The notes beneath the pieces were generated by a model. It searched no databases. It saw only the letters and a list, made by a program, of their open reading frames with translations, and had not been told where the DNA came from. The position numbers and the translations under genes are program-made. Positions 6,156-35,499 of a stretch of 64,000 bases of DNA are shown piece by piece. The DNA lies in contig JAHCKM010000001.1 in assembly GCA_026125795.1 (NCBI GenBank), forward strand, positions 124,001 to 188,000, in the 5' to 3' direction. Source of the DNA: Burkholderiaceae bacterium. Its GTDB lineage: Bacteria > Pseudomonadota > Gammaproteobacteria > Burkholderiales > Burkholderiaceae_C. Each line of letters starts with the position of its first letter. Position 1 is the stretch's first letter.

Positions 6156-6219
6156 AGGTGCGCGGCAGCCGTGCGCCGTGCGGCCTACACTGCGCTGCAC
6201 GGGTTTGTCGGGGATCCTC

Positions 6220-8949
6220 ATGCGCCACCTGGTGTTCGCACTTGCATTGTTTTTCAACGCTGCATGGGCGCAGCCGGGCGCGGCCTTGCCGGCCGGGGTC
6301 ACGCGCGGCGCCAGCGTCGAGGGCATCCACGAATACCGGCTGGCCAACGGCCTGCAGGTGCTGCTGGTGCCCGACGGCTCCAAGCCCACGACGACCGTCA
6401 ACGTCACCTACCACGTGGGCTCGCGCATGGAGAACTACGGCGAGTCGGGCATGGCGCACCTGCTGGAGCATCTGCTCTTCAAAGGCACGCCCAGACATCC
6501 CGAGGTGTGGGGCGAGTTCTCCAGGCGCGGCCTGCGCGCCAACGGCACCACGTCATACGACCGCACCAACTACTTCGCCAGCTTTTCGGCCAACGACGAC
6601 ACGCTGCGCTGGTACCTCGGCTGGCAGGCCGACGCCATGGTCAACAGCTTCATCGCGCGCAAGGACCTCGACACCGAGATGACGGTGGTGCGCAACGAGA
6701 TGGAGCGTGGCGAGAACAACCCGAGCCGCGTGCTGATCCAGCAGATCATGGCGTCGATGTACTGGTGGCACAACTACGGCAAGGCCACCATCGGTGCGCG
6801 CGCCGACGTGGAGAACGTCAGCATCGAGCGGCTGCAGGGTTTCTACCGCACCTACTACCAGCCCGACAACGCCACGCTGATCGTCGCCGGCCGCTTCGAT
6901 CCGGCGCGGACGCTGGCATGGATCGCCGAGGCGTTCGGGCCGATCCCGAAGCCGGCGCGCACGCTGCAGCCCACCTATACGCTCGATCCGGCGCAGGACG
7001 GCGAGCGCAGCGTCACGCTGCGGCGCGTCGGTGGCGCGCCGCTGCTGTACGTGGCGCACCACATGGGCGCGGGTTCGCACCCCGATTTCGCCGCCGCCGA
7101 TCTGCTGGCATCGATCCTCGGCGACGCGCCGGCCGGGCGGCTGCACAAGCGGCTGGTCGAGCCGCAGCTCGCGGCGTCGAGCTTCGGCTTTGCCTGGTCG
7201 CTGGCCGAGCCGGCGCCGATGTTCCTCGGCCTGCAACTGGCTCCGGGGCAGGACGTGGACAAGGCGCGCGCCGCGCTGCTGGGCGTGCTGGACGCCGTGC
7301 ACGACGAGCCGATCACCGCCGAGGAGCTCGAGCGTGCGCGCGCCGCGTGGCTGAAGAACTGGGAGCTCGGCTTCACCGACCCCGAAAGTGTGGGCGTGCA
7401 GATCTCCAACGCGATCGCGCGCGGCGACTGGCGGCTGTACTTCCTGCAGCGCGACCAGGTGCGCAAGCTGACCCTGGCCGACGTGCAGCGTGTCGCCAAC
7501 GAACGGCTGCTTCGAGCCAACCGCACGGTGGGCCTGTACCTGCCCACCGACAAGCCGCAGCGTGCCCCTGCGCCGGCACGCACCGATGTGGCGGCGCTGG
7601 TCAAGGACTACAAGGGCGATCCGGCAGCCGCGCAGGCCGAGGCGTTCGACGCCACGCCGGCCAACCTGGATGCGCGCACGCAGACCTTCACGCTGGCCAG
7701 CGGCATGCGCGTGGGCCTGATCCCCAAGGGCACGCGCGGCCGTGTGGTGCAGGCGAGCTTGCGGCTGCACTACGGCGACGAGAAGAGCCTGATGGGCGAG
7801 GAAACGGTGGCGTCGTTCGTCGGCAGCCTGCTCGACAAGGGCGGCGCCGGCCTGACGCGACAGCAGATCAGCGACGAGTTCGACCGCTTGCGCGCGCAGG
7901 TGGTGTTTGGCGCACACGAGCAGACGCTGACCGCCGCGCTGACCACCACGCGTGAGCATCTTCCGTCGCTGATCCAACTCGTGGGGCGCCTGATGCGAGA
8001 GCCGGCGTTCCCGGCGCCGGCACTGGAAGAAACGCGCCGCCAATGGCTGGCCCGCATTGAGACGCAGCGCAAGGAGCCCGACGGCGTGATCACCAACGCG
8101 CTGCGGCGCCACGGCAATCCGTACCCGCGCGGCCACCTGCGCTACGCCAGCACGTTCGAAGAGATGGTGCAGGATGTCAACGCGGTGGACGTGGAGCGGC
8201 TGCGCCACTTCCACGCGCGCTTCTACAGCGCCGCGGTGTCCGAGTTCGCGGCCGTCGGTGACATGGATGCAGCCGCGGTGCGGCGCGCCCTGGAGTCGGC
8301 GTTCGGCAACTGGCGTCAGCCGAGCGCCGGCGCGGTGCCCTATGCACGCGTGCCCGAGCCGGTGCTGGCACCGAAGCCCGAGCGCTTCGTGCTGCTCACG
8401 CCGGACAAGCAGAACGCCAACCTGCGCACCGCACTGCAGCTGCCGATCTCCGACGAGCACGCCGACTACCCGGCGTTGCTGCTGGCCAACCGCATGTTCG
8501 GCCTGGGCACCGCGTCGCGGCTGTGGCTGCGCGTGCGCGAGCGCGGCGGCCTCAGCTACGACGTGCGCTCGGTGATCCTCTGGAACGACCAGGCGCCGAA
8601 CTCGCTGTGGACGGTGTCGGCGATCTTTGCGCCGCAAAATCGCGCGCAGGTGGAAGCGGCGCTGCAGGAGGTGATGGCGAGCACGCGCGACGGCGGCTTC
8701 ACGCAGGCCGAGCTGGAGCAGAACCGGGTCGGCCTGCTCGGCCAGCGCCGCCTGCAACGCGCGCAGGACGCAGCCGTGGCCGGGCAACTGGCCCAGAACC
8801 TGCATCTGAAGCGCACGTTCGCGCTGTCGCAGCGCGTCGACGCGGCGCTCGAGCGGCTGACCCTGGCCGACGTGAACGGCGCCTACCGCAAGTACGTCGA
8901 CGCCACGCGCTGGTCGATCGCCTGGGGCGGCGACTTCAAGGGCCCCTGA
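6220..8949 (+). CDS. M16-family zinc metallopeptidase (insulinase/pitrilysin type), exported
   Basis: 909 aa from the ATG at 6220, chosen because a signal peptide follows at once ([16 protein letters not shown]). The first M16 half holds the inverted zinc motif HxxEH (HLLEH, residues 80-84) followed by [18 protein letters not shown], which supplies the distal glutamate. The second half (from about residue 450) keeps the fold ([22 protein letters not shown], then [18 protein letters not shown]) without a zinc motif, as is usual in single-chain periplasmic M16 enzymes. It should degrade peptides in the periplasm. A GC-rich hairpin (8957-8991) follows the stop. Confidence 0.9.
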
Positions 8950-21414: not shown

Positions 21415-22893
<1,479 letters not shown>

Positions 22894-22951: not shown

Positions 22952-23848
22952 TCAACGCGGCACGATCTTCACGTTGGCCAGCTTCTCCTGAGCCTCCACC
23001 AGCGACGGCACGAGCTTGTTGCCGAAGCCCAGCGCACAGGCCAGCGTGAGCGACTGGTGCGTGGCCTCGCCCATCACCGTGGGCACGCCGAGGCTCTCGG
23101 CCATGTGGGTGTAGTAGCGCACGTCCTTGCGCGCATTGTTGAGCTCGAACTTCATGCCGTCGAGCGTGCCGTCGAGCGTCTTGCTCATGACCTGGAACAG
23201 GCCGGAGTTCACCAGGCCTGCCGACACCAGCGCCACCAGCTTCTTCAGATCGACGCCGGCGCGCTGGCCGACGGCGAAAGCCTCGGCGATCGCGTTGCAC
23301 TGCGCCTGTGCGATGAAGTTGTTCAGCAGCTTGATGATGTGCCCCGCGCCGGGCCCGCCGACGTGGAAGATGTTCTCGGCGAAGCATTTCAACAGCGGCT
23401 CGATGCGCGCAAAGTCTTCCGCGCTCGCGCCCACCATCACGTTGAGCTTGCCGGCCTCGGCCTCCACCGGCGTGCGCGCCAGCGGTGCGTCGATGAAGCT
23501 GACGCCTTTGGCGGCACAGAGTTCGCGCATGCGGGTGGTGGAGTCGGGCTCGCTGGTCGAGGTGTCGACGATGACCAGGCCCTTGCGGGCCCCGGCCAGC
23601 AGCCCGTTGGGGCCTGCGACCACCTCTTCGACCTGAGGCGAGCCGGTGACGCACAGGAACACCACGCCGCACTCGCGCGCCATCGCGGCCGGATCGGGCA
23701 GCTCTTTCGCGCCCGCGGCCAGCAGATCGGCCACGCGCTCGCGCTTGCGAAACGCGGTGATCGCCAGCGGGTGGCCCTTGGCCTTGAGGTTCTTGGCCAT
23801 GCCGTGGCCCATGAGGCCCGATGCGCCGATGAAGCCGATGGTCTCCAT
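22952..23848 (-). CDS. NAD(P)-dependent beta-hydroxyacid dehydrogenase (3-hydroxyisobutyrate dehydrogenase family)
   Basis: 298 aa with a good ribosome-binding site (AAGGAG). Rossmann start GFIGASGLMGHGMAKNL, catalytic Lys173 in GAGHIIKLLNNF. The substrate loop reads DAPLARTPVEAEAGKL instead of the usual SGG form of HIBDH and tartronate-semialdehyde reductase, so substrate preference may differ. Last gene of the TRAP-3 operon, downstream of dctM by 39 bp. The transporter presumably imports a hydroxy acid that this enzyme oxidises, or a precursor of it. Confidence 0.85.
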   Translation of the reverse strand: METIGFIGASGLMGHGMAKNLKAKGHPLAITAFRKRERVADLLAAGAKELPDPAAMARECGVVFLCVTGSPQVEEVVAGPNGLLAGARKGLVIVDTSTSEPDSTTRMRELCAAKGVSFIDAPLARTPVEAEAGKLNVMVGASAEDFARIEPLLKCFAENIFHVGGPGAGHIIKLLNNFIAQAQCNAIAEAFAVGQRAGVDLKKLVALVSAGLVNSGLFQVMSKTLDGTLDGMKFELNNARKDVRYYTHMAESLGVPTVMGEATHQSLTLACALGFGNKLVPSLVEAQEKLANVKIVPR

Positions 23849-23887
23849 GTGTGCAACTCCTTCGAGCAGTGAGACGGGAACGAAGCG

Positions 23888-25204
23888 TCAGAGTGTGCCG
23901 GGCGGGAACAGCCGAGGCAGGAACAGTGGGATGTTGGGCCACATGATGATCGCCGCCAGGACGAGCAACATCGGCGCCAGGAAGATCAGCGTGTCCTTCA
24001 GGGCGTCGATCAGGCGGATCCGGGCCACCGCGCAGGCCACCATCAGGCACAAGCCGTACGGCGGCGTGACGAGCCCGAACGCCAGCGCCACGATGCCGAC
24101 GATCGCAAAGTGCACCGGGTCCATGCCGACGCTTTGCGCCAGCGGCTGCAGGATGGTGCCGACGATGATGATCGCGGGTATCGCGTCGAGGAAGCAGCCC
24201 ACCACCAGGAACACGCCGGCGATGAAGAATCCGGTGGTGGTCGGTCCCATGTCCCAGCTGGTCACGCCGGCCAGCAGCGCCTTGGGGATCTGGTAGTACG
24301 CCAGCAGCCAGCCGAACGCGCTCGCGGTGCCGACGCAGAAGAGTGTCACGCCGGCCAGCTTGCCGGTGTCGAGCAGCGCGCGGTGCAGGCCCTTCAGGCC
24401 CATTTCGCGGTAGATGAACAGGGTCAGCGCGCCGGCATACAGCACCGCGATCGCCGCCGACTCGGTGGCGGTGAACCAGCCGAACACCTTGCCGCCGACG
24501 ATGATGAACGGCGTCATCAGCGCGGGGATCGACACCAGCGCCGAGGAAAACACCTCGCGCAGCGTGGCGCGGGGATAGGTGGGATAGCCGCGCCGCCTGG
24601 CATAACCGTGCACGGTGGCCATCTGCGCCAGACCGATCAGCAGCCCGGGAATGATGCCGGCCAGCATCAGCGCGCCGATGCTCACCGTGAGCACGCCGCC
24701 CCACACGATCATCATGATCGATGGCGGGATGATCGCCGCCATCACCGCCGACACCGCGGTGACGGCCACCGAGAAGCTGAGGTCGTAGCCTTCCTTGGTC
24801 TGCGCCTCGATGAAGATCTTGCTCTGGCTCGCCGCGTCGGCGGTGGACGAGCCGGACACGCCGGCGAAGAAGATCGACAGCACGACGTTCACCTGCGCCA
24901 GCCCGCCGGGAAAGTGCCCCACCAGCGACCGCGAGAAGCGCACCAGCCGGTCGGTGATGCCGCCCACATTCATCAGGTTGGCGGTGAGCAGGAAGAACGG
25001 CACCGCCAGCAGGATGAACGAGTTGAACGCGTTGAAGGTCTCCTGCACCAGGCCCTGTGCGTCCAGGCGCGGTTCGATGAGATACATCGGCACGCAGGCC
25101 AGCCCGAGCGCGAAGGCCACCGGCACCCGAAGCAGCATCAGCGCGAAGAAGATGCCGAACAGGATCAGCGCCGCCATGCCGGGGCTGAGCGCGCCGCCGG
25201 TCAT
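23888..25204 (-). CDS. dctM: TRAP transporter large permease (DctM), system 3
   Basis: 438 aa from the ATG at 25204, which overlaps the dctQ stop (ATGA). DctM motifs: FFAGVSGSSTADAASQSKIF, AIIPPSIMMIVWGGVLTVSIG and GLVTPPYGLCLMVACAVARI. About 12 hydrophobic segments. Confidence 0.92.
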   Translation of the reverse strand: MTGGALSPGMAALILFGIFFALMLLRVPVAFALGLACVPMYLIEPRLDAQGLVQETFNAFNSFILLAVPFFLLTANLMNVGGITDRLVRFSRSLVGHFPGGLAQVNVVLSIFFAGVSGSSTADAASQSKIFIEAQTKEGYDLSFSVAVTAVSAVMAAIIPPSIMMIVWGGVLTVSIGALMLAGIIPGLLIGLAQMATVHGYARRRGYPTYPRATLREVFSSALVSIPALMTPFIIVGGKVFGWFTATESAAIAVLYAGALTLFIYREMGLKGLHRALLDTGKLAGVTLFCVGTASAFGWLLAYYQIPKALLAGVTSWDMGPTTTGFFIAGVFLVVGCFLDAIPAIIIVGTILQPLAQSVGMDPVHFAIVGIVALAFGLVTPPYGLCLMVACAVARIRLIDALKDTLIFLAPMLLVLAAIIMWPNIPLFLPRLFPPGTL

Positions 25205-25713
25205 GCGGACTGCTCCGATCCGGCCGCGCTGCCGCGCCCGAGCAGCACGCGCAGCGCTTCTGCCATGTGCTCGCCCTGGAACACCAGCCACGTGAGGCCG
25301 GTGACCGGCCAGGCCACGTGGATCATCCACAGCGGCAGTTCGGCCAGCTCGGACAGGCGCTTCCACGCAAAGGCGGTGAACAAATAGCCGCCCCACACAA
25401 ACACCAGCGCGAAGGCCAGGATGCCGAGACCGGAAACGATGCGCACCGCCGCGTTGGCGCGCGGGCCGAGCCGCGGCCACACGTCGACCTCGAAGTGCGT
25501 GGCATCGCGCACGCCGACCATGGCGCCGATCATCACCATCCAGACGAAGAGAAAGCGCGCCATCTCCTCGGTCCAGATGTAGCTGGGAATCAGCTCGGTG
25601 TAGCGCGAGAAGATCTGCAGTGACACCGGCACGATGATGATCGCCACCGAGGCCACCAGCAGCCACGACAACAGCCGGCTGTAGGCAGCCGTCAAGCGCT
25701 TGTAGAGATGCAT
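25201..25713 (-). CDS. dctQ: TRAP transporter small permease (DctQ), system 3
   Basis: 170 aa. Hallmark IPSYIWTEEMARFLFVWMVM (W-TEE) and DATHFEVDVWP, four membrane helices. Translationally coupled to dctM by a four-base overlap. Separated from its receptor gene dctP (upstream on this strand) by 168 bp filled with a mosaic repeat. Confidence 0.9.
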   Translation of the reverse strand: MHLYKRLTAAYSRLLSWLLVASVAIIIVPVSLQIFSRYTELIPSYIWTEEMARFLFVWMVMIGAMVGVRDATHFEVDVWPRLGPRANAAVRIVSGLGILAFALVFVWGGYLFTAFAWKRLSELAELPLWMIHVAWPVTGLTWLVFQGEHMAEALRVLLGRGSAAGSEQSA

Positions 25714-25739
25714 TCGACGGAGACGAGGGATGCCAGCTT

Positions 25740-25885
25740 GTCTCGACGGCCTGCCGTCAGCAGGGAAGCGGCGCCACTCCAGTGGCGCCTCCCCCAGTGA
25801 ACGCCGCGGATCCGGCTTTGCCGGTCCGCCGGCGTTGCCCCCTCGAGGGGGAGGCGGCCGCCAGGCCGCATCGGGGGTGGGTCAT
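25740..25885. repeat. mosaic palindromic repeat between dctP and dctQ of system 3
   Basis: Holds a perfect inverted repeat with arms GGCGCCACT/AGTGGCGCC (25770-25789), a CCGGC-TTT-GCCGG hairpin (about 25811-25824), the palindrome CCCCCTCGAGGGGG (25838-25851) and a terminal module. The terminal 42 bp (25844-25885) match 34362-34403 in inverse orientation at 39 of 42 positions, and CCGGCTTTGCCGGTCCGC is also shared exactly. The element supplies the TGA stop of dctP. Confidence 0.85.
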
Positions 25886-26877
25886 TTCATCGCGTTGATC
25901 TTGTCGTAGATCGCATCGGCGCCGATCTCCTTGGCGTACGCCGCCATCACCGGATCGGCCAGCTTCTTCATCGGCTCGCGATCGGTGAACGGCACGCGCT
26001 TGAGCTTGCCGTCCTTCTCGAGCTTGTCGAGCTTGGCGGTGTCCTCTGAGCTCTCGATCTGGCGCCCGTGCGCGCCCGCCTCCTTGCCGGCCTTGACGAT
26101 CGCGTCCTGCAGATCCTTGGGCAGCTTGGCGAAAGTCTTGGTCGAGAAGCAGATCGGGCGGATCGTGATCGCATGCTGCGTCATCGACAGGTGCGGCGCC
26201 ACTTCGTAGAACTTCATCGCTTCGACGCCGGCGGCCTCATTCTCGCCGGCGGCGATCACGTTGTTCTGGATCGCGTTGTAGACCTCGTTGTAGGCGATCA
26301 CCGTCGGGCTCATGCCGATGGCGGCGAAGGTCTTGCTCCAGATCGGCGCGCCCTGCACACGCACTTTCAGGCCCTTCATCTCGGCCAGGTTGCGCACCGG
26401 CTTGTTGACGAAGATGTTGCGCGTGCCGCCGCCGGCATAGCCGATCAGCATCACCTCGGCGTTCTTGTTGACCTCGTCGGCCACCGGCTTGAGCAGGTCG
26501 GCGTCGAGTACCTTGTTCCAGTGCGCGAGGTCGCGGAACAGGAACGGCGCGTCGATGAACGGCGCCGCCTTGGAGAAGGTGCTCATGTGCGCCGGCGACA
26601 CGATGCCGTAGTCGACCGCCTTGCCCTGCGCCATGTACTCGAAGTACTGCTTCTCCAGCCCGAGTTCGCTGTTGCGGTGGAGCACGAACGTGATCGGCTT
26701 GCCGTAGTACTTCTTGACCAGCTCCTCGAAGCGCAGCAGCGCCTTGTTGAACGCGTGGTCGTCGTTGAACTGCACGGCGCCGTGCAGCGTGATCGCCTGC
26801 GCGTGCGCGGTGTGCACGAACGGCGCCGAGACGATCGGCGCTGCAGCGATCGACTGCAGCAGGGTTCTGCGCTTCAT
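25882..26877 (-). CDS. dctP: TRAP transporter substrate-binding protein (DctP), system 3
   Basis: 331 aa. Signal peptide KRRTLLQSIAAAPIVSAPFV, then DctP marks: VQFNDDHAFNKALLRFEELV, DYGIVSPAHMSTFSKAAPFID, and the conserved AEMKGLKVRVQGAPIWSKTF plus VIAYNEVYNAIQNNVIAAGE. The stop codon TGA lies in the terminal module of a mosaic repeat. First gene of the dctP-dctQ-dctM-dehydrogenase operon. Its promoter region is shared with the divergent liv/depolymerase operon. Confidence 0.9.
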   Translation of the reverse strand: MKRRTLLQSIAAAPIVSAPFVHTAHAQAITLHGAVQFNDDHAFNKALLRFEELVKKYYGKPITFVLHRNSELGLEKQYFEYMAQGKAVDYGIVSPAHMSTFSKAAPFIDAPFLFRDLAHWNKVLDADLLKPVADEVNKNAEVMLIGYAGGGTRNIFVNKPVRNLAEMKGLKVRVQGAPIWSKTFAAIGMSPTVIAYNEVYNAIQNNVIAAGENEAAGVEAMKFYEVAPHLSMTQHAITIRPICFSTKTFAKLPKDLQDAIVKAGKEAGAHGRQIESSEDTAKLDKLEKDGKLKRVPFTDREPMKKLADPVMAAYAKEIGADAIYDKINAMK

Positions 26878-27082: not shown

Positions 27083-27098
27083 CGGCACGGTGCTTGCG
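27083..27098 (+). promoter_or_regulatory. sigma-54 (-24/-12) promoter of the liv/depolymerase operon
   Basis: CGGCACGGTGCTTGCG against the consensus TGGCACG-N4-TTGCW. The invariant GG (27084-27085) and GC (27096-27097) are separated by exactly ten bases. Transcription should start near 27109, about 65 bases before the binding-protein ATG. Two consensus edge positions differ. Confidence 0.6.
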
Positions 27099-27174: not shown

Positions 27175-28383
27175 ATGTCGACACCCGTTCAATTCACCCG
27201 CCGCAGCGCGTTTGCCGTGGCTGCGCTGGCCGCTGCCTGCGCGCTGCCGCTGGCCGCGCAGGCGCAGGGCAAGGAAGTTCGCATCGCCCACATCTACAGC
27301 AAGACCGGTCCGCTCGAGGCCTACGGCAAGCAGACGGCCACAGGTTTCATGATGGGTCTGGAGTACGCCACCGGCGGCACGATGACCGTGGCCGGCAAGA
27401 AGCTGGTGGTGCTGGAGAAAGACGACCAGGGCAAGCCCGATCTCGGCAAGAACCTGCTGGCGCAGGCCTATGGCGACGACAAGGCCGACATCGCCGTCGG
27501 TCCCACGTCGTCGGGCGTGGCGCTGGCGATGCTGCCGGTGGCCGAGGAGTACAAGAAGGTGCTGCTGGTGGAGCCCGCGGTGGCCGACTCGATCACCGGC
27601 GACAAGTGGAACAAGTACATCTTCCGCACCGGCCGCAACTCCAGCCAGGACGCCATCAGCAACGCGGTGGCGCTCGACAAGCCGGGCGTCAGCATCGCCA
27701 CGCTGGCGCAGGATTACGCGTTCGGCCGCGACGGCGTGAAGGCGTTCAAGGAGGCGATCAAGACCGCCAAGGTGGTGCACGAGGAGTACCTGCCGACCAC
27801 TACCACCGACTTCACCGCCGGTGCGCAGCGGCTGATCGACGCGTTGAAGGACAAGCCCGGCCGCAAGGTCATCTGGGTCATCTGGGCCGGCGCGGGCAAC
27901 CCGTTCAAGATCGCCGACCTCGATCTGAAGCGCTACAACATCGAAATCGCCACCGGCGGCAACATCCTGCCGGCGATGACGGCCTACAAGCAGTTCCCGG
28001 GCATGGAAGGCGCCACGTACTACTACTTCGCGATCCCGAAGAACCCGGTCAACGAGTGGCTTGTGGCCAACCACTACAAGCAGTTCAAGGCGCCGCCTGA
28101 TTTCTTCACTGCCGGCGGCATGAGCGCGGCCATCGCGGTGGTCGAGGCTCTGAAGAAGACCAACGGCGATACCAGCGCGAACAAGCTGATCTCGACGATG
28201 GAAGGCATGAGCTTCGAGACGCCGAAGGGCAAGATGACCTTCCGCAAGGACGACCACCAGGCGATGCAGTCGATGTACCACTTCAAGATCAAGGTGGATC
28301 CGGCGTTCGCGTGGGGCGTGCCTGAGTTGGTGTCGGAGATCAAGCCTGAGCAGATGAACGTCCCTATCCGCAACAAGCGCTGA
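27175..28383 (+). CDS. branched-chain-amino-acid-type ABC transporter substrate-binding protein
   Basis: 402 aa with CAGGAGA upstream of the ATG. Signal peptide (RRSAFAVAALAAACALPLAAQAQ), then a type I periplasmic binding fold: VRIAHIYSKTGPLEAYGKQ, GDDKADIAVGPTSSGVALAM, YAFGRDGVKAFKEAIKTAK. This LivJ class binds amino acids, amides, hydroxy acids or aromatic acids, so the ligand cannot be read by eye. The depolymerase gene immediately downstream and the hydrolases later in the operon suggest a polyester breakdown product such as 3-hydroxybutyrate or its oligomers (inference). Confidence 0.88.
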   Translation: MSTPVQFTRRSAFAVAALAAACALPLAAQAQGKEVRIAHIYSKTGPLEAYGKQTATGFMMGLEYATGGTMTVAGKKLVVLEKDDQGKPDLGKNLLAQAYGDDKADIAVGPTSSGVALAMLPVAEEYKKVLLVEPAVADSITGDKWNKYIFRTGRNSSQDAISNAVALDKPGVSIATLAQDYAFGRDGVKAFKEAIKTAKVVHEEYLPTTTTDFTAGAQRLIDALKDKPGRKVIWVIWAGAGNPFKIADLDLKRYNIEIATGGNILPAMTAYKQFPGMEGATYYYFAIPKNPVNEWLVANHYKQFKAPPDFFTAGGMSAAIAVVEALKKTNGDTSANKLISTMEGMSFETPKGKMTFRKDDHQAMQSMYHFKIKVDPAFAWGVPELVSEIKPEQMNVPIRNKR

Positions 28384-28417
28384 CGCGCTTGCTGCGGTAG
28401 GGACTTTTGGCTCCCCC

Positions 28418-28438
28418 AGCCCCCTCCGAGAGGGGGCT
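28418..28438 (+). other. strong hairpin between the binding protein and depolymerase genes
   Basis: Perfect 9-bp arms AGCCCCCTC (28418-28426) and GAGGGGGCT (28430-28438) with loop CGA, 35 bases after the stop. No T-run follows. Such a hairpin after a binding-protein gene typically stabilises its mRNA and lowers read-through, giving more receptor than permease. It also resembles the G/C modules of the mosaic repeats. Confidence 0.6.
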
Positions 28439-28457
28439 CCAGTCAGAGCTGGAAGTC

Positions 28458-29612
28458 GTGTTCCTCAACGTCTTGCTTCGTGTTGCGATGCTGTGCGCCT
28501 GCGTGGCTCTGCCCATGGTGCACGCCGCACCGCTGTCTGCGCTGAAGATCGACGCGTCGAGCGTCACCGTGTCGGGGCTGTCGTCAGGCGGCTACATGGC
28601 CACGCAGCTGCACGTGGCATGGTCGTCGGTGTTCAAGGGCGCGGGCGTGATCGCGGCCGGGCCGTACTACTGCGCCCAGGGTCTCGCCACGTTCGCGACT
28701 ACGCGTTGCCTGACGCGCGACAGCGCACCGCCGGTGGCCGCGCTGGCGGCCACGGCTAAGGCCTGGGCGGCGGCGGGGCGCATCGACGCCACGTCGAACC
28801 TCGCGTCGTCAAAGGTGTGGCTGTTCGCCGGCGCGCAGGACAGCGTGGTGGTGCCGGCGCTCGGCGCGGACTTGAAGCGCTTTTACGAGGCTTTCGTGCC
28901 AGCCGCGAACATCATCGTGCGCAACGACGTGCCGGCCGAACATGGCATGCCGACCGACGATTTCGGCAGCGCCTGCAGCCACCGCGGGCTGCCGTTCATC
29001 AATGACTGCGACGTGGACGGGGCCGGCGAACTGCTGCGCCACCTGCTCGGCACGCTGCAGCCGCGCAACGACGGCGCGCTCCAGGGGCGTTTCGTCGAGT
29101 TCGATCAGCACGAGTTCATCGGCGCGGGGCAGGGCATGGCCGGAAACGGCTGGCTCTTCGTGCCGCAGGCGTGCACCCCCAACGATGCGTGCAGGCTCCA
29201 CGTGGTGCTGCACGGATGCGGACAGAACGTGGAGTCGCTCGGCGACAGCTATGTCCGGCGCACCGGCTACAACCGCTGGGCCGACACCAACCGCATCGTC
29301 GTCCTGTACCCGCAGACGAGCAACGACGCGCTCAACGCCTGCTGGGACTGGTGGGGATACACCGGTGCGGACTACGCGCAGAAGTCGGCACCGCAGATCG
29401 GCGCCATCGTCGCGATGGTGCGGCGCCTGTCGGGCGACCACGGCGTGTGCAACGACACGTTGAACGGTTGGCATGTATGGGCCGGGCGCGCGCGTTGGGA
29501 CGGCTTTGGTGCGGCGGTGGCCAAAGGCTCGAACCACAAGCTCGGCTGGTGGTGGCGCTCGAGCAGCCTGCGCGAGTCGCCGCGCGGTCATTTCGTCGAG
29601 GGGCGTTGCTGA
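28458..29612 (+). CDS. secreted poly(3-hydroxybutyrate) depolymerase, catalytic domain type 2
   Basis: 384 aa from the GTG at 28458 (GGAAG just upstream), with a signal peptide (LLRVAMLCACVALPMVHA). Extracellular PHB depolymerases of type 2 carry, in order, lipase box, Asp, His and oxyanion His. Here the order is GLSSG (40-44, Ser42), FAGAQDSVV, EHGMPTDDFGSAC and LHVVLHGCGQN, so the type 2 order is clear. No fibronectin-like linker or substrate-binding domain follows, so it should act on amorphous polymer, oligomers or soluble esters. The stop overlaps the livG ATG by one base, tying it to the ABC transporter. Confidence 0.82.
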   Translation: MFLNVLLRVAMLCACVALPMVHAAPLSALKIDASSVTVSGLSSGGYMATQLHVAWSSVFKGAGVIAAGPYYCAQGLATFATTRCLTRDSAPPVAALAATAKAWAAAGRIDATSNLASSKVWLFAGAQDSVVVPALGADLKRFYEAFVPAANIIVRNDVPAEHGMPTDDFGSACSHRGLPFINDCDVDGAGELLRHLLGTLQPRNDGALQGRFVEFDQHEFIGAGQGMAGNGWLFVPQACTPNDACRLHVVLHGCGQNVESLGDSYVRRTGYNRWADTNRIVVLYPQTSNDALNACWDWWGYTGADYAQKSAPQIGAIVAMVRRLSGDHGVCNDTLNGWHVWAGRARWDGFGAAVAKGSNHKLGWWWRSSSLRESPRGHFVEGRC

Positions 29613-30379
29613 TGCTCGTCACCACCGACCTGACGATCCGCTTCGGCGGCCACGTGGCGGTCGACCACGTGTCCTGCACCTTTGAGGCCGGTACGCTGAC
29701 CGCGATCGTCGGCCCCAACGGCGCCGGCAAGACCACTTACTTCAACCTGATCTCGGGTCAGTTGCGCGCCAGCGAGGGCCGCGTGGCGCTCAAGGGTGAA
29801 GACATCACCGCCCTGCCGGCGCCGCTGCGCACGCGCAAGGGACTGGGGCGCGCGTTTCAGCTCACGCAACTGTTCCCCAACCTCACCGTGCAGGAGAACG
29901 TGCGGCTTGCGGTGCAGGCGCGCGAGCAGGGGCGCGGGCACCACGCGATCGACCTGTGGCATGTGTGGCTCGACCGCAAGGCCTGGATCGACGAGGCCCG
30001 TTCGATCCTCGACAGCGTGCGGCTCGACGACAAGCGCGACGCGCACGCCAGCGCGCTGCCGCACGGCGATCAGCGCAAGCTCGAGGTGGCGATGCTGATG
30101 GCGCTGGATCCGCTGGTCTACATGTTCGACGAGCCCACCGCAGGCATGAGCGTCGACGAGGTGCCGGTGGTGCTGGATCTGATCCGCCAGCTGAAGGCGC
30201 GCAAGGATCGGCTGATCCTGCTGGTGGAGCACAAGATGGACGTGGTGCGCGAGCTGAGCGACCGCATCGTCGTGCTGCACAACGGACAACTGGTCGCCGA
30301 CGGCGAGCCCGCCACGGTCATTGCATCTCCGGTCGTGCAGCAGGCGTACCTTGGCATGGCCGCAGAGGAGCCCGCATGA
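29612..30379 (+). CDS. livG: ABC transporter ATP-binding protein, LivG type
   Basis: 255 aa. Walker A GPNGAGKT (34-41), Walker B LVYMFDEP, and the LivG mark GLGRAFQLTQLFPNLTVQENV. The signature motif is degenerate (LPHGDQRKLE in place of LSGGQ), common in LivG. Powers uptake with LivF. Start overlaps the depolymerase stop (TGATG), end overlaps livF (ATGA). Confidence 0.92.
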   Translation: MLVTTDLTIRFGGHVAVDHVSCTFEAGTLTAIVGPNGAGKTTYFNLISGQLRASEGRVALKGEDITALPAPLRTRKGLGRAFQLTQLFPNLTVQENVRLAVQAREQGRGHHAIDLWHVWLDRKAWIDEARSILDSVRLDDKRDAHASALPHGDQRKLEVAMLMALDPLVYMFDEPTAGMSVDEVPVVLDLIRQLKARKDRLILLVEHKMDVVRELSDRIVVLHNGQLVADGEPATVIASPVVQQAYLGMAAEEPA

Positions 30380-31113
30380 GCACGAATCTGTTGGAGCTCA
30401 CCGGCGTGCACACGCACATTGGCGCGTACCACATCCTGCACGGCGTGAGCTTTGCGGTGCGCGAGGGCGAGGTCACGATGCTGCTCGGCCGCAACGGCGC
30501 CGGCAAGACCACGACGCTGCGCACGATCATGGGTCTTTGGTCGGCGAGCCAGGGCGACATCCGCTTCAAGGGCGAATCGCTCAAGGGACTCGCGACACCC
30601 GATGTCGCGATGCGGGGCATCGCCTACGTGCCCGAGAGCATGGGCATCTTCACCGACCTCACGGTGCAGGAGAACCTGGTGCTCGCCGCGCGCGCGGCAC
30701 GGCACGCCGGCGAGCTGGACAGCGTGCGGCTTGACTGGATCTTCGGCCTCTTCCCGGCGCTGAAGAAGTTCTGGCTCTATCCGGCGGGCAAGCTCTCCGG
30801 CGGACAGAAGCAGATGCTCGCGGTGGCGCGCGCCATCGTCGAACCGCGTGCGCTGCTGTTGATCGACGAGCCGAGCAAGGGCCTGGCGCCATCGATCATC
30901 AACAACCTCGTCAGCGCGTTCAACGAGCTCAAGCGCCAGAAGACCACGATCCTGCTGGTGGAGCAGAACTTCCACATGGCGCGTTCGCTCGGCGACCAGG
31001 TGGCGGTGATGGACAACGGCGCCGTCGTGCACACCGGCTCGATGCGCGAGCTCGCCGAAGACGAGGCCATGCAGCAACGCTTGCTCGGTCTCTCACTGGC
31101 GGTGCATCAATGA
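30376..31113 (+). CDS. livF: ABC transporter ATP-binding protein, LivF type
   Basis: 245 aa. Walker A GRNGAGKT (38-45), signature LSGGQ (140-144), Walker B LLLIDEPSKGLAP. The ESMGIFTDLTVQENLVLAAR stretch is typical of LivF. Its stop TGA lies in the first bases of a mosaic repeat (ATGAGCCCC...). Confidence 0.92.
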   Translation: MSTNLLELTGVHTHIGAYHILHGVSFAVREGEVTMLLGRNGAGKTTTLRTIMGLWSASQGDIRFKGESLKGLATPDVAMRGIAYVPESMGIFTDLTVQENLVLAARAARHAGELDSVRLDWIFGLFPALKKFWLYPAGKLSGGQKQMLAVARAIVEPRALLLIDEPSKGLAPSIINNLVSAFNELKRQKTTILLVEQNFHMARSLGDQVAVMDNGAVVHTGSMRELAEDEAMQQRLLGLSLAVHQ

Positions 31114-31257
31114 GCCCCGCCCGGCCGCCCGAAGGGGTTCAGCCCCCGCTTGGCGGGGAGGCGCGAAGCGCCAGGGGTGCACTTATGAGCGCCGCACGGC
31201 CGCTCCGAAGGCGCTCGCTCCCCCTCGGGGGGAAGGCGCGCCGCGCCAAGGGGGCGA
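31111..31257. repeat. two mosaic palindromic repeats between livF and livH
   Basis: Two tandem units begin alike: ATGAGCCCCGCCCGGCCGCC at 31110 and ATGAGCGCCGCACGGCCGCT at 31186, each followed by CGAAG. They contain hairpins (GCTTGGCGGGGAGGCGCGAAGCGCC; CCCCCTCGGGGGG). The first unit's start recurs at 58618. The second's GCTCCCCCTCGGGGGG recurs at 41868-41883. The livH ATG follows directly. Confidence 0.8.
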
Positions 31258-31258
31258 C

Positions 31259-32293
31259 ATGAACACCACGACAACCAGCCCGGCGCTCGCGGCGGCCACC
31301 GCCGGCGCGGCGATCCCCAAAGCGCAGTTCGACTGGATTCCGGTCGCGCTCGTCGTCGCGGTCGCCGTGGCCGCGCTGCCGCTGATCGGCTCGCCATCGA
31401 CCTGGGTGACGCTCACCGTCGCCGGGCTTGCGATGGGGATGATCGTCTTCATCATCGCGTCGGGCCTCACGCTGGTGTTCGGGCTGATGGACGTGCTCAA
31501 TTTCGGCCACGGCGTGTTCATCGCGCTCGGCGCGTTCATCGCCACCAGTGTGATGGGCGGCATGGCCGGATGGGCGGGCCAGTCCGGCGTCGCCCAGCTA
31601 GTGGCCGTGTTCACGGCGATGTTGGTCGCGTTCGCCGCCGCGGCGGCGCTCGGCTGGCTGTTCGAGCGCGTGATCGTGCGGCCCGTGTACGGGCTGCACC
31701 TCAAGCAGATCCTGATCACGATGGGCGGCATGATCGTCGGCGAGGAGCTGATCAAGGTCATCTGGGGGCCGCTGCAGATCCCGCTGCCGCTGCCGGAGGT
31801 GCTGCGCGGCTCGTTCCTCATCGGCGACGCGGCCGTCGAGAAGTATCGCGTGCTGGCCACGCTGATCGGCGCGGTGGTGTTCGTGGCGCTCGCGTGGACC
31901 TTGAGCCGCACCAAGATCGGCCTGCTGATCCGAGCCGGTGTGCAGGACCGCGAGATGGTGGAGTCGCTCGGCTACCGCATCCGGCGCCTGTTCGTCGGCG
32001 TGTTCGTCACCGGCAGCGCGCTCGCCGGCGTGGGCGGCGTGCTGTGGGGCCTGTATCAGCAGAGTGTGGTGCCGCAGATCGGCGCTCAGGTCAACGTGCT
32101 GCTGTTCATCGTGATCATCATCGGTGGGCTCGGCTCGACGCTCGGCTGCTTCGTCGGCGCGCTGCTGGTCGGGCTGATGGCCAACTACACCGGCTTCCTG
32201 GCGCCGAAGGTGGCGCTGTTCTCCAACATCGGGCTGATGGTCGCCATCCTGCTGTGGCGGCCGCAGGGCCTGTATCCGGTGACCAACCGATGA
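31259..32293 (+). CDS. livH: ABC transporter permease, LivH type
   Basis: 344 aa with eight or nine hydrophobic segments. LivH marks: GLTLVFGLMDVLNFGHGVFI (the conserved N-F-x-H-G motif), IGLLIRAGVQDREMVESLGY and the C-terminal LWRPQGLYP. About 25 extra N-terminal residues precede the first helix. Forms the channel with LivM. Confidence 0.92.
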   Translation: MNTTTTSPALAAATAGAAIPKAQFDWIPVALVVAVAVAALPLIGSPSTWVTLTVAGLAMGMIVFIIASGLTLVFGLMDVLNFGHGVFIALGAFIATSVMGGMAGWAGQSGVAQLVAVFTAMLVAFAAAAALGWLFERVIVRPVYGLHLKQILITMGGMIVGEELIKVIWGPLQIPLPLPEVLRGSFLIGDAAVEKYRVLATLIGAVVFVALAWTLSRTKIGLLIRAGVQDREMVESLGYRIRRLFVGVFVTGSALAGVGGVLWGLYQQSVVPQIGAQVNVLLFIVIIIGGLGSTLGCFVGALLVGLMANYTGFLAPKVALFSNIGLMVAILLWRPQGLYPVTNR

Positions 32294-32447
32294 ACCGTTG
32301 GCCCCCACGCTCGCTTCTTTGGCTGCGGCCGGCGCTTGGCGCCTTCACATCGCTGCGCGATGTGAGCCTGCGCCGCAACCTTCGGTTGTCGCTGCCCCCC
32401 GAGGGGGCTGGCCGGCTCGGGAGCGGCCCAGCGCCGGCCGGGTGCGC
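32294..32447. repeat. mosaic palindromic repeat between livH and livM
   Basis: Starts at the livH stop (ATGA) with the module GGCCCCCACGCTCGCTTC (32303-32320), the inverse of the module at 12836-12855. Further inverted pieces follow (CATCGCTGCGCGATGTGA; CGCAACCTTCGGTTG; GCCCCCCGAGGGGGC). The livM ATG begins directly after it. Confidence 0.75.
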
Positions 32448-33527
32448 ATGATGATCGCTCGTCTACTCTCGCATGACCTGCCGCGCAGCCGCTGGCTCGC
32501 GCTCGCGCTGGTGCTGGTGCTGATCGCGCTGGCCTTCGCGCCGTTCCTGTTCCCCGGAAACAAGGCGCTCGGCGCGGCGGCCAAGATGCTGGTGTTCATC
32601 CTGCTGGTGGCGAGCTACGACCTGCTGCTCGGATACACCGGCATCGTCAGCTTTGCGCACACGATGTTCTTCGGCATCGGCGCCTATGGCGTGGCGATCG
32701 CCAGCACGCGCCTGGAGCCCACCTTCGGCGCGATCGCATCGGGGCTGTTCGCCGCGCTGCTGGTCTCGCTCGTGCTGTCGCTGGTGATCGGGCTGTTCTC
32801 GCTGCGCGTGAAGGCGATCTTCTACGCGATGATCACGCTGGCGGTGGCCAGCGCGTTCCAGACGCTGGCGTCGCAACTGTCGGAGTTCACCGGCGGCGAG
32901 GACGGGCTCACGTTCAAGAACCCGCCCGTCTTGAGCCCGAGCTTCGAGCCGTTCGAGAACCCGATCTTCGGCGTCACGATCGACGGCAAGCTCTTCACCT
33001 ACTACCTGCTGTTCGTTGCGGTGGTGCTTCTGTTTCTCGCGCTGCTGCGCATCGTCAACTCGCCGTTCGGACGCGTGCTGCAGGCGATCCGCGAGAACGA
33101 CTTCCGCGCCGAGGCGATCGGCTACCGCACGGTGGTTTACCGCACGCTGAGCAACGTGTTGGCGGCGCTGTTCGCCACGCTGGCCGGCGCGCTGCTCGCG
33201 CTGTGGCTGCGCTACACCGGGCCCGACACCACGCTCAGCTTCGAGATCATGCTCGACATCCTGCTGATCGTCGTGATCGGCGGCATGGGCACGCTGTATG
33301 GCGCGGTGATCGGCAGCGTGATCTTCGTGTTTGCGCAGAACTACCTGCAGGACCTGCTCCAGGTCGGGCAGGCGGCGCTCGGCGGCGAAGGCGGCGTGCC
33401 GGTGTTGAGCCAGCTGGTGTCGCCCGATCGCTGGCTGTTGTGGCTGGGTGTGTTGTTCGTGCTCGCGGTGTATCACTTCCCGAGCGGCATTGTCGGCCGC
33501 CTGCGTTTGATGAAGGCGAAGGCATGA
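32448..33527 (+). CDS. livM: ABC transporter permease, LivM type
   Basis: 359 aa from the ATG at 32448, where the usual LivM N terminus begins. Marks: LLVASYDLLLGYTGIVSFAH, GIGAYGVAIA, LQAIRENDFRAEAIGY and DILLIVVIGGMGTLYGAVIG. An insert at about 145-185 (EDGLTFKNPPVLSPSFEPFE) fits LivM of the aromatic or hydroxy-acid branch. Stop overlaps the next ATG by four bases. Confidence 0.92.
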   Translation: MMIARLLSHDLPRSRWLALALVLVLIALAFAPFLFPGNKALGAAAKMLVFILLVASYDLLLGYTGIVSFAHTMFFGIGAYGVAIASTRLEPTFGAIASGLFAALLVSLVLSLVIGLFSLRVKAIFYAMITLAVASAFQTLASQLSEFTGGEDGLTFKNPPVLSPSFEPFENPIFGVTIDGKLFTYYLLFVAVVLLFLALLRIVNSPFGRVLQAIRENDFRAEAIGYRTVVYRTLSNVLAALFATLAGALLALWLRYTGPDTTLSFEIMLDILLIVVIGGMGTLYGAVIGSVIFVFAQNYLQDLLQVGQAALGGEGGVPVLSQLVSPDRWLLWLGVLFVLAVYHFPSGIVGRLRLMKAKA

Positions 33528-34360
33528 CTGCATCGACTTCCCACTACGTCACCGTGTCGGGCCGCGAGCTGCACGTCACCGAGTGGGGTTCCGCGCACGC
33601 CGACGTAATCGTCGCCTGGCACGGCCTGGCGCGCACCGGGCGCGACATGGATGACATCGCCGAACACCTGTCGCAGCGCTACCGGGTGATCTGCCCCGAC
33701 ACGATCGGCCGCGGCCTGAGCCAATGGAGTCCCGATCCCGATCGCGAGTACTGCCTGGCGTTCTACGAGCAGCTCGCGCTCGGCCTGCTCGATGCGCTGC
33801 AGATTCATCGCTGCCTGTGGCTCGGCACTTCGATGGGCGGCGCGATCGGGCTGCGCGCCGCCGCCCATGCGTTGCGCGGCCGCATCCGCAAGCTGGTGGT
33901 CAACGACATCGGCCCGGAGTTGCCGCAAGCCGCGCAGCAGCGCATCCTCACCTACGCCGGCTGTCCCGAGGCGTTTGCCACCGTGAGCGAGCTCGAGGCG
34001 TATTTCCGCGTCATCTACAAGCCCTATGGCTGGTTGAGCGACGCGCAATGGCGCCGACTCACCGAAACCTCGGCGCGCCGCCTGCCCGATGGCCGCGTGA
34101 CGCCGCACTACGACCCGGCGATGGTGCGCCAGTTCGCCGTGCACCCCAACGACTACCAGCAATGGGACGCCTGGGACGCGCTGGACATCCCGGTGCTCGC
34201 GCTGCGCGGCGAAAGCTCCGACCTGCTGCTGCCCGACGTGGCCGAGGCCATGCGCACGCGCGGCCCGCGCGCGGTGGTGGTGACGATTCCCGACTGCGGC
34301 CATGCGCCGGCATTGAACACGCCAGAGCAGTTCGCATTGGTCGAGCGCTTCTTTGGCTGA
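33524..34360 (+). CDS. cytoplasmic alpha/beta hydrolase coupled to the Liv permease
   Basis: 278 aa without signal peptide. Alpha/beta-hydrolase: oxyanion HGLARTGRDM, nucleophile elbow GTSMGG (101-106, Ser103), acid in LRGESSDLLLPDV and final His in DCGHAPALN. Start overlaps the livM stop (ATGA), so it is made with the transporter and should act on what is imported. Relatives include oligomer and lactone hydrolases. A hydroxybutyrate-oligomer hydrolase role is inferred from context only. Confidence 0.75.
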   Translation: MTASTSHYVTVSGRELHVTEWGSAHADVIVAWHGLARTGRDMDDIAEHLSQRYRVICPDTIGRGLSQWSPDPDREYCLAFYEQLALGLLDALQIHRCLWLGTSMGGAIGLRAAAHALRGRIRKLVVNDIGPELPQAAQQRILTYAGCPEAFATVSELEAYFRVIYKPYGWLSDAQWRRLTETSARRLPDGRVTPHYDPAMVRQFAVHPNDYQQWDAWDALDIPVLALRGESSDLLLPDVAEAMRTRGPRAVVVTIPDCGHAPALNTPEQFALVERFFG

Positions 34361-34361
34361 C

Positions 34362-34450
34362 ATGACCCACCCCCGAAGCGACCTGGCGGTCGCCTCCCCC
34401 TCGCCGCCAGCGGACCGGCAAAGCCGGACCGCTGCGTCCGCTGGGCTTCA
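34362..34450. repeat. mosaic palindromic repeat after the alpha/beta hydrolase gene
   Basis: 34362-34403 is the inverse of 25844-25885 (39 of 42 bases identical). It is followed by a hairpin around GGACCGGCAAAGCCGGACC (34411-34430), also present in inverse form at about 25808-25826. A nine-base piece found in the first copy is missing here. The element starts one base after the upstream stop codon. Confidence 0.85.
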
Positions 34451-34497
34451 CGGTCCAGCGCCGCCGGGTTTGATTCCTTTGACAACCAGGAGACACG

Positions 34498-35499
34498 ATG
34501 AAGAACCATCTTTGCCGCGCTGTGGTCGTTGCCGCGGCGCTCGGCTGCGCGCTGGCGCACGCCGGCGGCACGGTGGGCAACAGCTTGCCGGCCGGCTTTC
34601 CGGCGATCGAAGACGCCTCGCTCGGCAAGCCGCTGATCGGCTTTGGCGCCTCGGGACCGGTGCAGCGCACGCCGGTGATCTTCATCCACGGCAACAACGA
34701 CACGCCGTTTCCGACGTCGTGCAACCCGTTCTTCGGCTGGATGCAATCGTTCGCGCAGTTCTTCGCCGACAGCGGCTACTCGACAACCGAGCTGTGGGGC
34801 ATCGGCTACGAGGGTGACCAGTGCGACCTCGCCGTGCAGGCGGACCCGACGCCGCCGAGCGGACCCACGCGCCGCTCGAGCATTGCGCACAGCAACGCCG
34901 CCAACGTGCCCGACCTGCGACGTTTCGTCGCGGCGGTGCTCGATGCCACCGGCGCCAGGCAGGTGGACATCGTGGCGCACAGCCTGGGCGTGACGATCAC
35001 GCGCGAGTGGCTGCGCCAGGACGATGCCTATCGGACCGTGCGGCGCTTGGTCGCGATCGACGGCCCCAATCACGGCATCATCAACTGCTCGCCCGACCCG
35101 GCGAACTTCTATCAATTGCCCGAGCAGGGTGGATTCACGCCAACGAGCGAGGTGTGCGTCGAGCTGGGCTCGCCCGACACCCCGTTCTTGAGGCGCCTCA
35201 ACAAAGGCGACGACACGCCGGGGCCGACCAAGAACCTGGTGATCCGCAACGCCGACACCAGCTTCGTCTACTTCTCGCGGCAGGACGGCCCCTTCCTGCC
35301 GCCGGTGCCGGCTGTGGACTCGTTCGGCCAGCCGGCCGACTTCTCGCGCAGCGCCACGCTGCGCGGCGCCCGCCAGCTCGACCTCACCGGCCAGGGCGCA
35401 TTCGATCCGATCCTCGGCAGCGGGCATCTGGGCATTCTCAATTCGCCGCAGACGCGCCAGGCCGCGCTCGAGTTCCTGACATCGCGTCATCCGCATTGA
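34498..35499 (+). CDS. secreted alpha/beta hydrolase (lipase / PhaZ7-like)
   Basis: 333 aa with AGGAGA upstream of the ATG. Signal peptide (RAVVVAAALGCALAHAGG). Oxyanion region PVIFIHGNNDTPFP (59-72), nucleophile elbow AHSLGV (160-165, Ser162) and a conserved DGPNHGIINCSPDP loop. The HGNxD plus AHSxG layout recalls class-2 lipases and the PhaZ7 depolymerase of Paucimonas, which attacks native amorphous PHB. Both readings fit the neighbouring depolymerase. I cannot separate them by eye. Same strand as the liv operon, 137 bp behind it with a repeat in between. Confidence 0.65.
   Translation: MKNHLCRAVVVAAALGCALAHAGGTVGNSLPAGFPAIEDASLGKPLIGFGASGPVQRTPVIFIHGNNDTPFPTSCNPFFGWMQSFAQFFADSGYSTTELWGIGYEGDQCDLAVQADPTPPSGPTRRSSIAHSNAANVPDLRRFVAAVLDATGARQVDIVAHSLGVTITREWLRQDDAYRTVRRLVAIDGPNHGIINCSPDPANFYQLPEQGGFTPTSEVCVELGSPDTPFLRRLNKGDDTPGPTKNLVIRNADTSFVYFSRQDGPFLPPVPAVDSFGQPADFSRSATLRGARQLDLTGQGAFDPILGSGHLGILNSPQTRQAALEFLTSRHPH

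Follow-up and report, generated by a model that had tools for sequence, protein, structure and literature searches.

Extracellular depolymerases of polyhydroxybutyrate (PHB) are well studied, but the entry of their products into the cell is not. The transporter encoded by hbtABC in Ruegeria pomeroyi is of the tripartite ATP-independent periplasmic (TRAP) class. In the available portions of PMC10130141, it is called the sole confirmed bacterial uptake system for 3-hydroxybutyrate (3HB), and these portions mention no depolymerase. A study of biofilms on high-density polyethylene reports liv and phaZ transcripts, with no operon in the portions available (PMC11583400).

Here we analyze a 64,000-nucleotide stretch of DNA from a Burkholderiaceae bacterium (GCA_026125795.1, contig JAHCKM010000001.1, positions 124,001 to 188,000), which we call the window. 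In it, a gene for a PHB depolymerase, PhaZ, lies inside an operon for a Liv-type ATP-binding cassette (ABC) importer. Described importers of this type (Liv/HAAT), e.g., Escherichia coli LivJK-HMGF, Urt and the aromatic-acid systems of Rhodopseudomonas palustris, have the same five-part make-up and binding-protein fold as the window's system. However, they differ from it in that the operon analyzed here contains a depolymerase and, in relatives, often an oligomer hydrolase, that curated Liv and Urt cut-offs are not reached, and that a glutamate of LivJ is replaced by asparagine. We predict that this is a PHB-utilization operon, and that its Liv importer takes up 3HB and/or short 3HB oligoesters; we assign this reading a probability of roughly 0.72. 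The proposed substrate would be shared with hbtABC, while the transporter class is different. More broadly, our results suggest that many soil and water bacteria join PHB-cutting enzymes to an "amino-acid"-type ABC importer in one operon, and that this importer takes up the PHB unit or short chains. The transporter architecture is already known, and what we propose as new is the substrate and the built-in polymer-cutting modules. In the open-access literature, as far as titles, beginnings of abstracts and some passages extend, no recognizable description of a depolymerase-liv operon was found.

Gene content of the operon

Using the list of open reading frames and profile searches, we found all eight genes on the forward strand, in the order stated in a preliminary description of this DNA (coordinates in the window):

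27175-28383, + strand: substrate-binding protein of the Liv/HAAT type (Peripla_BP_6, 174 bits; orthologue of R. palustris RPA4397)
28458-29612, + strand: PhaZ, type-2 PHB depolymerase (NF050059, 386 bits, cut-off 280; probably secreted)
29612-30379, + strand: LivG-type ATPase (profile match)
30376-31113, + strand: LivF-type ATPase (profile match)
31259-32293, + strand: LivH-type permease (PF02653)
32448-33527, + strand: LivM-type permease (PF02653)
33524-34360, + strand: alpha/beta hydrolase, a core member of the cassette (PF00561/PF12697)
34498-35499, + strand: secreted lipase-like hydrolase (Lipase_2, PF01674, 69 bits)

The coordinates of PhaZ use a GTG, which we judged to be the best start. 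Both of the overlaps described previously are present: the PhaZ stop and the LivG ATG have one base in common (TGATG), and the alpha/beta hydrolase overlaps livM by 4 bases. With a Peripla_BP_6 binding protein, two BPD_transp_2 permeases and two ATPases in one gene run, the locus has the composition of a Liv/HAAT importer.

The catalytic Ser, Asp and His of PhaZ and its HGC motif align with the PHB depolymerase structure 2d80, and the triad is invariant in our PhaZ alignment. We take 2d80 to be the Penicillium funiculosum enzyme, and its catalytic positions to be Ser39, Asp121 and His155. In the alignment with 2d80, the lipase box of the window's PhaZ is near the N-terminus and the oxyanion His is towards the C-terminus, which is the type-2 pattern. 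Its N-terminus, judged by eye, resembles a Sec signal; the protein is probably secreted. The window's PhaZ has the triad and HGC motif in common with type-2 extracellular depolymerases (2d80, NF050059), and passes the NF050059 cut-off. Unlike them, it is encoded within an ABC-transporter operon and, according to the alignment, it has a shortened C-terminal region and has lost the Fn3-like linker.

Recurrence of PhaZ in the transporter operon

To determine how general this arrangement is, we used 200 genomes drawn evenly from the window's family, and called PhaZ relatives at E <=1e-20 and orthologues of the binding protein at E <=1e-130. A PhaZ relative is present in 44 of the 200 genomes and a binding-protein orthologue in 107. 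In 28 of the 44 genomes with PhaZ, representing 25 genera, the gene is directly 3' of the binding protein. For 27 of these, this means that PhaZ is on the same strand and its start follows the binding-protein gene by at most 235 bp; the 28th (G063) was included based on a second binding protein. (The numbers of genera, here and for the oligomer hydrolase below, were counted by hand from match tables.) LivG lies beyond PhaZ in 27 of the 28 (21 among the 30 loci first fetched, and 3 + 3 later), and the contig of the remaining genome (G104) ends. Occurrence of the depolymerase in the operon of one strain only, which the preliminary description raised as a reason to abandon a functional link, is thus not what is observed.

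We also scanned named genomes, keeping the best 80 of at least 575 PhaZ relatives; these 80 are the closest to the window's PhaZ and largely come from Variovorax and Acidovorax. Among these best 80 of at least 575 loci, 68 have the order binding protein-PhaZ-LivG, one (L082) is cut by the end of its contig, and 11 have neither neighbor in view, some being on short contigs. The gene arrangement is not due to chance. The previously described position of PhaZ within a Liv operon is therefore borne out across the family, with the qualification that PhaZ is an optional insert, and does not belong to the operon's core. The cassette's general plan is a sigma-54 activator, followed at some distance by binding protein-LivGFHM-alpha/beta hydrolase.

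Genome G132 has tandem copies of the binding protein before PhaZ, and G063 also has two close copies upstream of PhaZ (loci L211 and L027).

A second optional insert

At several relatives' loci, LivM and the hydrolase are separated by a gene of ~700 codons. The two such genes that we tested both encode full-length 3HB-oligomer hydrolases (3HBOH; PF10605, 1053 and 1037 bits), whose N-termini are lipobox-like, as judged by eye. A 3HBOH match is present in 63 of the 200 family genomes. We compared 59 of these. The binding protein is also present in 42, and 32 of these 42 genomes, representing 27 genera, have 3HBOH on the same strand at a distance of 3.6-7 kb downstream; G027, which is among the 32, is in fragments. 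The slot of PhaZ is empty in 17 of these 32 genomes (G063, with its PhaZ beside the second binding protein, is not among them). All 17 have the order binding protein-LivGFHM-3HBOH, with the hydrolase next in 16 and the contig ending in the 17th. Among the best 80 of at least 575 named loci, 3HBOH occupies the slot between LivM and the hydrolase in 25. This slot therefore holds a second optional insert, 3HBOH. In comparison with 3HB-oligomer hydrolases as previously known, the relatives' copies are distinguished by their association with an importer. Together with the placement of PhaZ, that of 3HBOH gives good support to the functional link between depolymerase and Liv operon that was originally suggested. 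3HBOH could not have figured in the preliminary description, as it is missing from the window's genome.

In Ramlibacter sp. WS9 (L136:14954-17889), the place that 3HBOH has in relatives, after LivM and before the hydrolase, is taken by a carboxylesterase (PF00135) together with a second Peripla_BP_6 protein.

The binding protein and its ligand

A Foldseek search with an AlphaFold2 model of the binding protein (mean per-residue confidence, pLDDT, 88.6) found as nearest solved structure RPA4397 of R. palustris CGA009 (3n0x). This protein is orthologous to that of the window, with 71% identity in the structural alignment. The title of its PDB entry names no ligand, but annotates branched-chain amino-acid transport. 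The main text of a screen of R. palustris binding proteins, as far as available, also does not name its ligand (PMC3223731).

The curated models for branched-chain LIV systems (PRK15404, PRK11300, PRK11614, PRK10740, PRK11301) do not reach their cut-offs: scores in bits, each followed by its cut-off, are 54/477 for the binding protein, 186/362 for LivG, 169/441 for LivF, 70/379 for LivH and 79/366 for LivM. Cut-offs for urea (Urt) systems are not reached either, e.g., 55 bits versus 493 for UrtA. Position Glu226 of LivJ, which we take to be the anchor of the amino group in amino-acid binders, aligns with Asn263, a residue that all 30 binding proteins compared have in common (in a weak comparison to E. 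coli LivJ/LivK based on thin profiles). Because of the Asn at this position, an amino acid is unlikely to be the ligand.

Sequence alone does not choose among 3HB, 3HB oligomers and some other carboxylate, but genomic context does. Since a depolymerase and an oligomer hydrolase occur in two fixed places, we prefer 3HB or its oligomers. PhaZ and 3HBOH catalyze successive steps of PHB breakdown, and their optional presence at fixed places in the operon suggests a tie between the Liv transporter and 3HB or short oligoesters.

The alpha/beta hydrolase has no N-terminal signal peptide that is evident by eye. Because this signal-less hydrolase is conserved, we prefer the hypothesis that imported substrates include, at least in part, dimers or trimers. 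The hydrolase weakly matches a model of intracellular polyhydroxyalkanoate (PHA) depolymerases (42 bits versus a cut-off of 300), which is no proof of function.

Regulator, promoter and neighboring genes

Additional features were found upstream of the operon:

21415-22893, + strand: regulator with PAS, sigma-54 activator and Fis-type regions (tblastn, 59% identity to an Acidovorax protein; NCBIfam sigma-54 regulators)
22952-26877, - strand: TRAP cluster with a DctP-type binding protein, DctQ/DctM-like frames and a hydroxyisobutyrate-dehydrogenase-like gene (PF03446, PF14833)
25882-26877, - strand: DctP-type TRAP binding protein (PF03480)
27083-27098, + strand: candidate sigma-54 (-24/-12) promoter CGGCACGGTGCTTGCG (score 13.5; 92 bp before the start of the binding protein)

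The probable regulator and the promoter both fall outside positions 27175-35499, to which the preliminary description had confined the operon. The regulator's Acidovorax homologue has the Pfam domains PAS, Sigma54_activat and HTH_8. The window's regulator is 65-85% identical to the regulators of the 7 related loci tested, and its orthologues are upstream of the cassette in most of the family loci that we read. In the window, the reverse-strand TRAP cluster parts the regulator from the operon. We compared 135 distinct regions upstream of the binding protein, which include many near relatives: 91 of them carry a -24/-12 box scoring at least 13, whereas only 14 such boxes turned up in 1510 windows placed at random in these loci. 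At 16 loci outside the family, no such box was found.

Proposed function and alternative explanations

Gene identities, their order and recurrence, the promoter motif and the catalytic residues are seen in the sequence itself; from these, we propose the following pathway. The sigma-54 activator would switch on a single transcript. Exported PhaZ would cleave extracellular PHB into 3HB and short 3HB oligoesters, and in relatives the lipoprotein 3HBOH would continue the breakdown of oligomers before they reach the cytoplasm. Capture of 3HB and/or its dimers and trimers would fall to the binding protein, and their import to LivHMGF. The alpha/beta hydrolase, presumably cytoplasmic, would most likely split the imported oligoesters. 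Finally, homologues of 3HB-dehydrogenase could pass the monomer to central metabolism; there are two matches over the cut-off in the window's genome, encoded outside the operon.

A more specific version of this proposal is a polyester-utilization locus, built like the polysaccharide-utilization loci of gut bacteria: the importer would be specialized for linear (R)-3HB oligoesters, depolymerase and oligomer hydrolase would plug into two fixed slots, and a cytoplasmic oligoesterase would be the core enzyme. This version is tentative; we would put it at somewhat below even odds. If it is true, cassettes without secreted enzymes would belong to scavengers of PHB fragments that are freed by neighbors.

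It is important to consider several observations that weigh against a role in PHB utilization. Both a PhaZ in the slot and a linked 3HBOH are missing from 62 of the 107 genomes that encode the binding protein, although contig ends may hide some; the ligand of the core cassette could therefore be broader. PhaZ is located elsewhere than in the slot in 16 of the 44 genomes that have it, and of the 42 genomes that encode 3HBOH as well as the binding protein, 10 have 3HBOH at another location. The two other genomes sampled from the window's genus both carry the cassette without PhaZ. The window's genome has no PF10605 match by a search that finds 3HBOH in relatives, and which also gave no match in control genomes. 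The C-terminal region of PhaZ is not specific to the slot, as it is absent from 3 slot proteins and present in ~10 unlinked ones. Finally, the solved structures that come next to RPA4397 in similarity are of binding proteins in complex with aromatic acids (4-hydroxybenzoate and relatives).

One alternative is that the Liv transporter imports a different carboxylate, e.g., an aromatic or other hydroxy acid, while PhaZ and 3HBOH are housed with it only for being of use under a shared, starvation-type sigma-54 control. The aromatic-acid binders and the 62 genomes without either enzyme beside the cassette are in favor of this explanation, as are cassettes from outside the family. We read 16 stretches from outside the family: in 15, the binding protein is accompanied by LivGFHM, and in one (L237) it stands without them. 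None of the 15 cassettes has PhaZ, and only one has 3HBOH: in L234:3922-8836, which belongs to a different family of this order, LivM is directly followed by an acyl-CoA ligase and then by 3HBOH. Since PhaZ is absent from these cassettes and 3HBOH is present in one, the link to PHB, strong in this Burkholderiales family, is thin beyond it. However, the aromatic-acid binders share only 21-27% identity with the window's protein, and two enzymes that act successively in one pathway recur in two fixed slots of this operon. Moreover, at the 17 PhaZ loci outside the slot, which cover all 16 such genomes, there is neither the cassette nor another LivG/H/M set in view. (One of these loci, L193, has 3HBOH beside PhaZ, and four have weak LivF-like matches of 25-28%.) We therefore regard import of another carboxylate as unlikely, albeit worth keeping in mind.

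Another hypothesis is that the neighboring TRAP transporter (23.9-26.9 kb in the window, reverse strand) imports 3HB, with the Liv system serving a different substrate. This idea draws on the reported status of hbtABC, itself a TRAP system, as the only confirmed bacterial 3HB uptake system and on the DctP-type protein encoded at 25882-26877. However, a comparison with 7 related loci, including two from the window's genus, gave no match to the TRAP genes or the accompanying dehydrogenase, although all of these loci have an intact cassette. We judge this hypothesis to be very improbable. That PhaZ and 3HBOH are chance passengers unrelated to the transporter might be argued from the patchy presence of PhaZ, even within a genus, but is hardly credible given the same places and strand in 25 and 27 genera and the repeated gain or loss.

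If uptake of 3HB or its oligoesters by the Liv system is correct, a transporter whose binding protein is found in 107 of 200 family genomes, and which is likely annotated as transporting branched-chain amino acids, gains a substrate. In addition, RPA4397 would gain a candidate ligand, and a marker operon would become available for work on how PHA plastics are biodegraded.

Distribution and history of the cassette

We read the loci of 20 of the 62 genomes that have neither enzyme beside the cassette. The order binding protein-LivG-LivF-LivH-LivM-hydrolase is present in all 20, and the sigma-54 regulator is upstream in 19. We also made a quick tree for 76 loci, based on their five transporter proteins. 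The full set of five was present at 104 of 120 candidate loci, and Variovorax and Acidovorax were thinned to 7 each. On this tree, at least 12 changes are needed for PhaZ, at least 10 for 3HBOH and at least 6 for the hydrolase. These counts are not rates, as loci with PhaZ are overrepresented among the 76 and some contigs stop short. The nearest cassette to that of the window is from a genome of the same genus without PhaZ, and the nearest named neighbors are Sphaerotilaceae, which suggests that the window comes from a bacterium of this kind.

In L173, a locus of the same genus, a 0.8-kb stretch (6213-7017) without a PhaZ match separates the binding protein from LivG. In L242:4713-8472, from outside the family, the genes after the cassette encode an alpha/beta hydrolase, a regulator that by eye appears TetR-like, a member of the crotonase family and an acyl-CoA ligase.

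Relationships among depolymerases

Among the best 80 of at least 575 relatives, the nearest to the window's PhaZ is a copy from an uncultured Burkholderiales bacterium, with 72% identity. PF10503 has two matches in the window's genome, namely the operon's PhaZ and C1:1861188-1861766, which is outside the window. PhaZ matches were found in 35 plasmid records, all below 60% identity. The catalytic domains form two deep groups, A and B, both of which occur in the operon slot. PhaZ proteins of L021 and L022 belong to a different catalytic group from those of L012 and L013, yet their Fn3-like linkers and C-terminal regions are very similar, which suggests domain exchange among them. The slot proteins of L134, L140 and L142, from betaproteobacterial metagenome-assembled genomes, are 342-348 residues long and end after the catalytic domain.

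The downstream lipase-like gene

The last of the eight genes (34498-35499) had been described as encoding a second secreted, lipase- or PhaZ7-like hydrolase. A lipase-like gene is indeed present, but its kinship to PhaZ7 is distant at best, and we rejected this assignment (NF050060, 65 bits versus a cut-off of 450). Among the 270 loci fetched, relatives of this lipase occur only in L173 and L174, which are of the same genus, with 84-87% identity.

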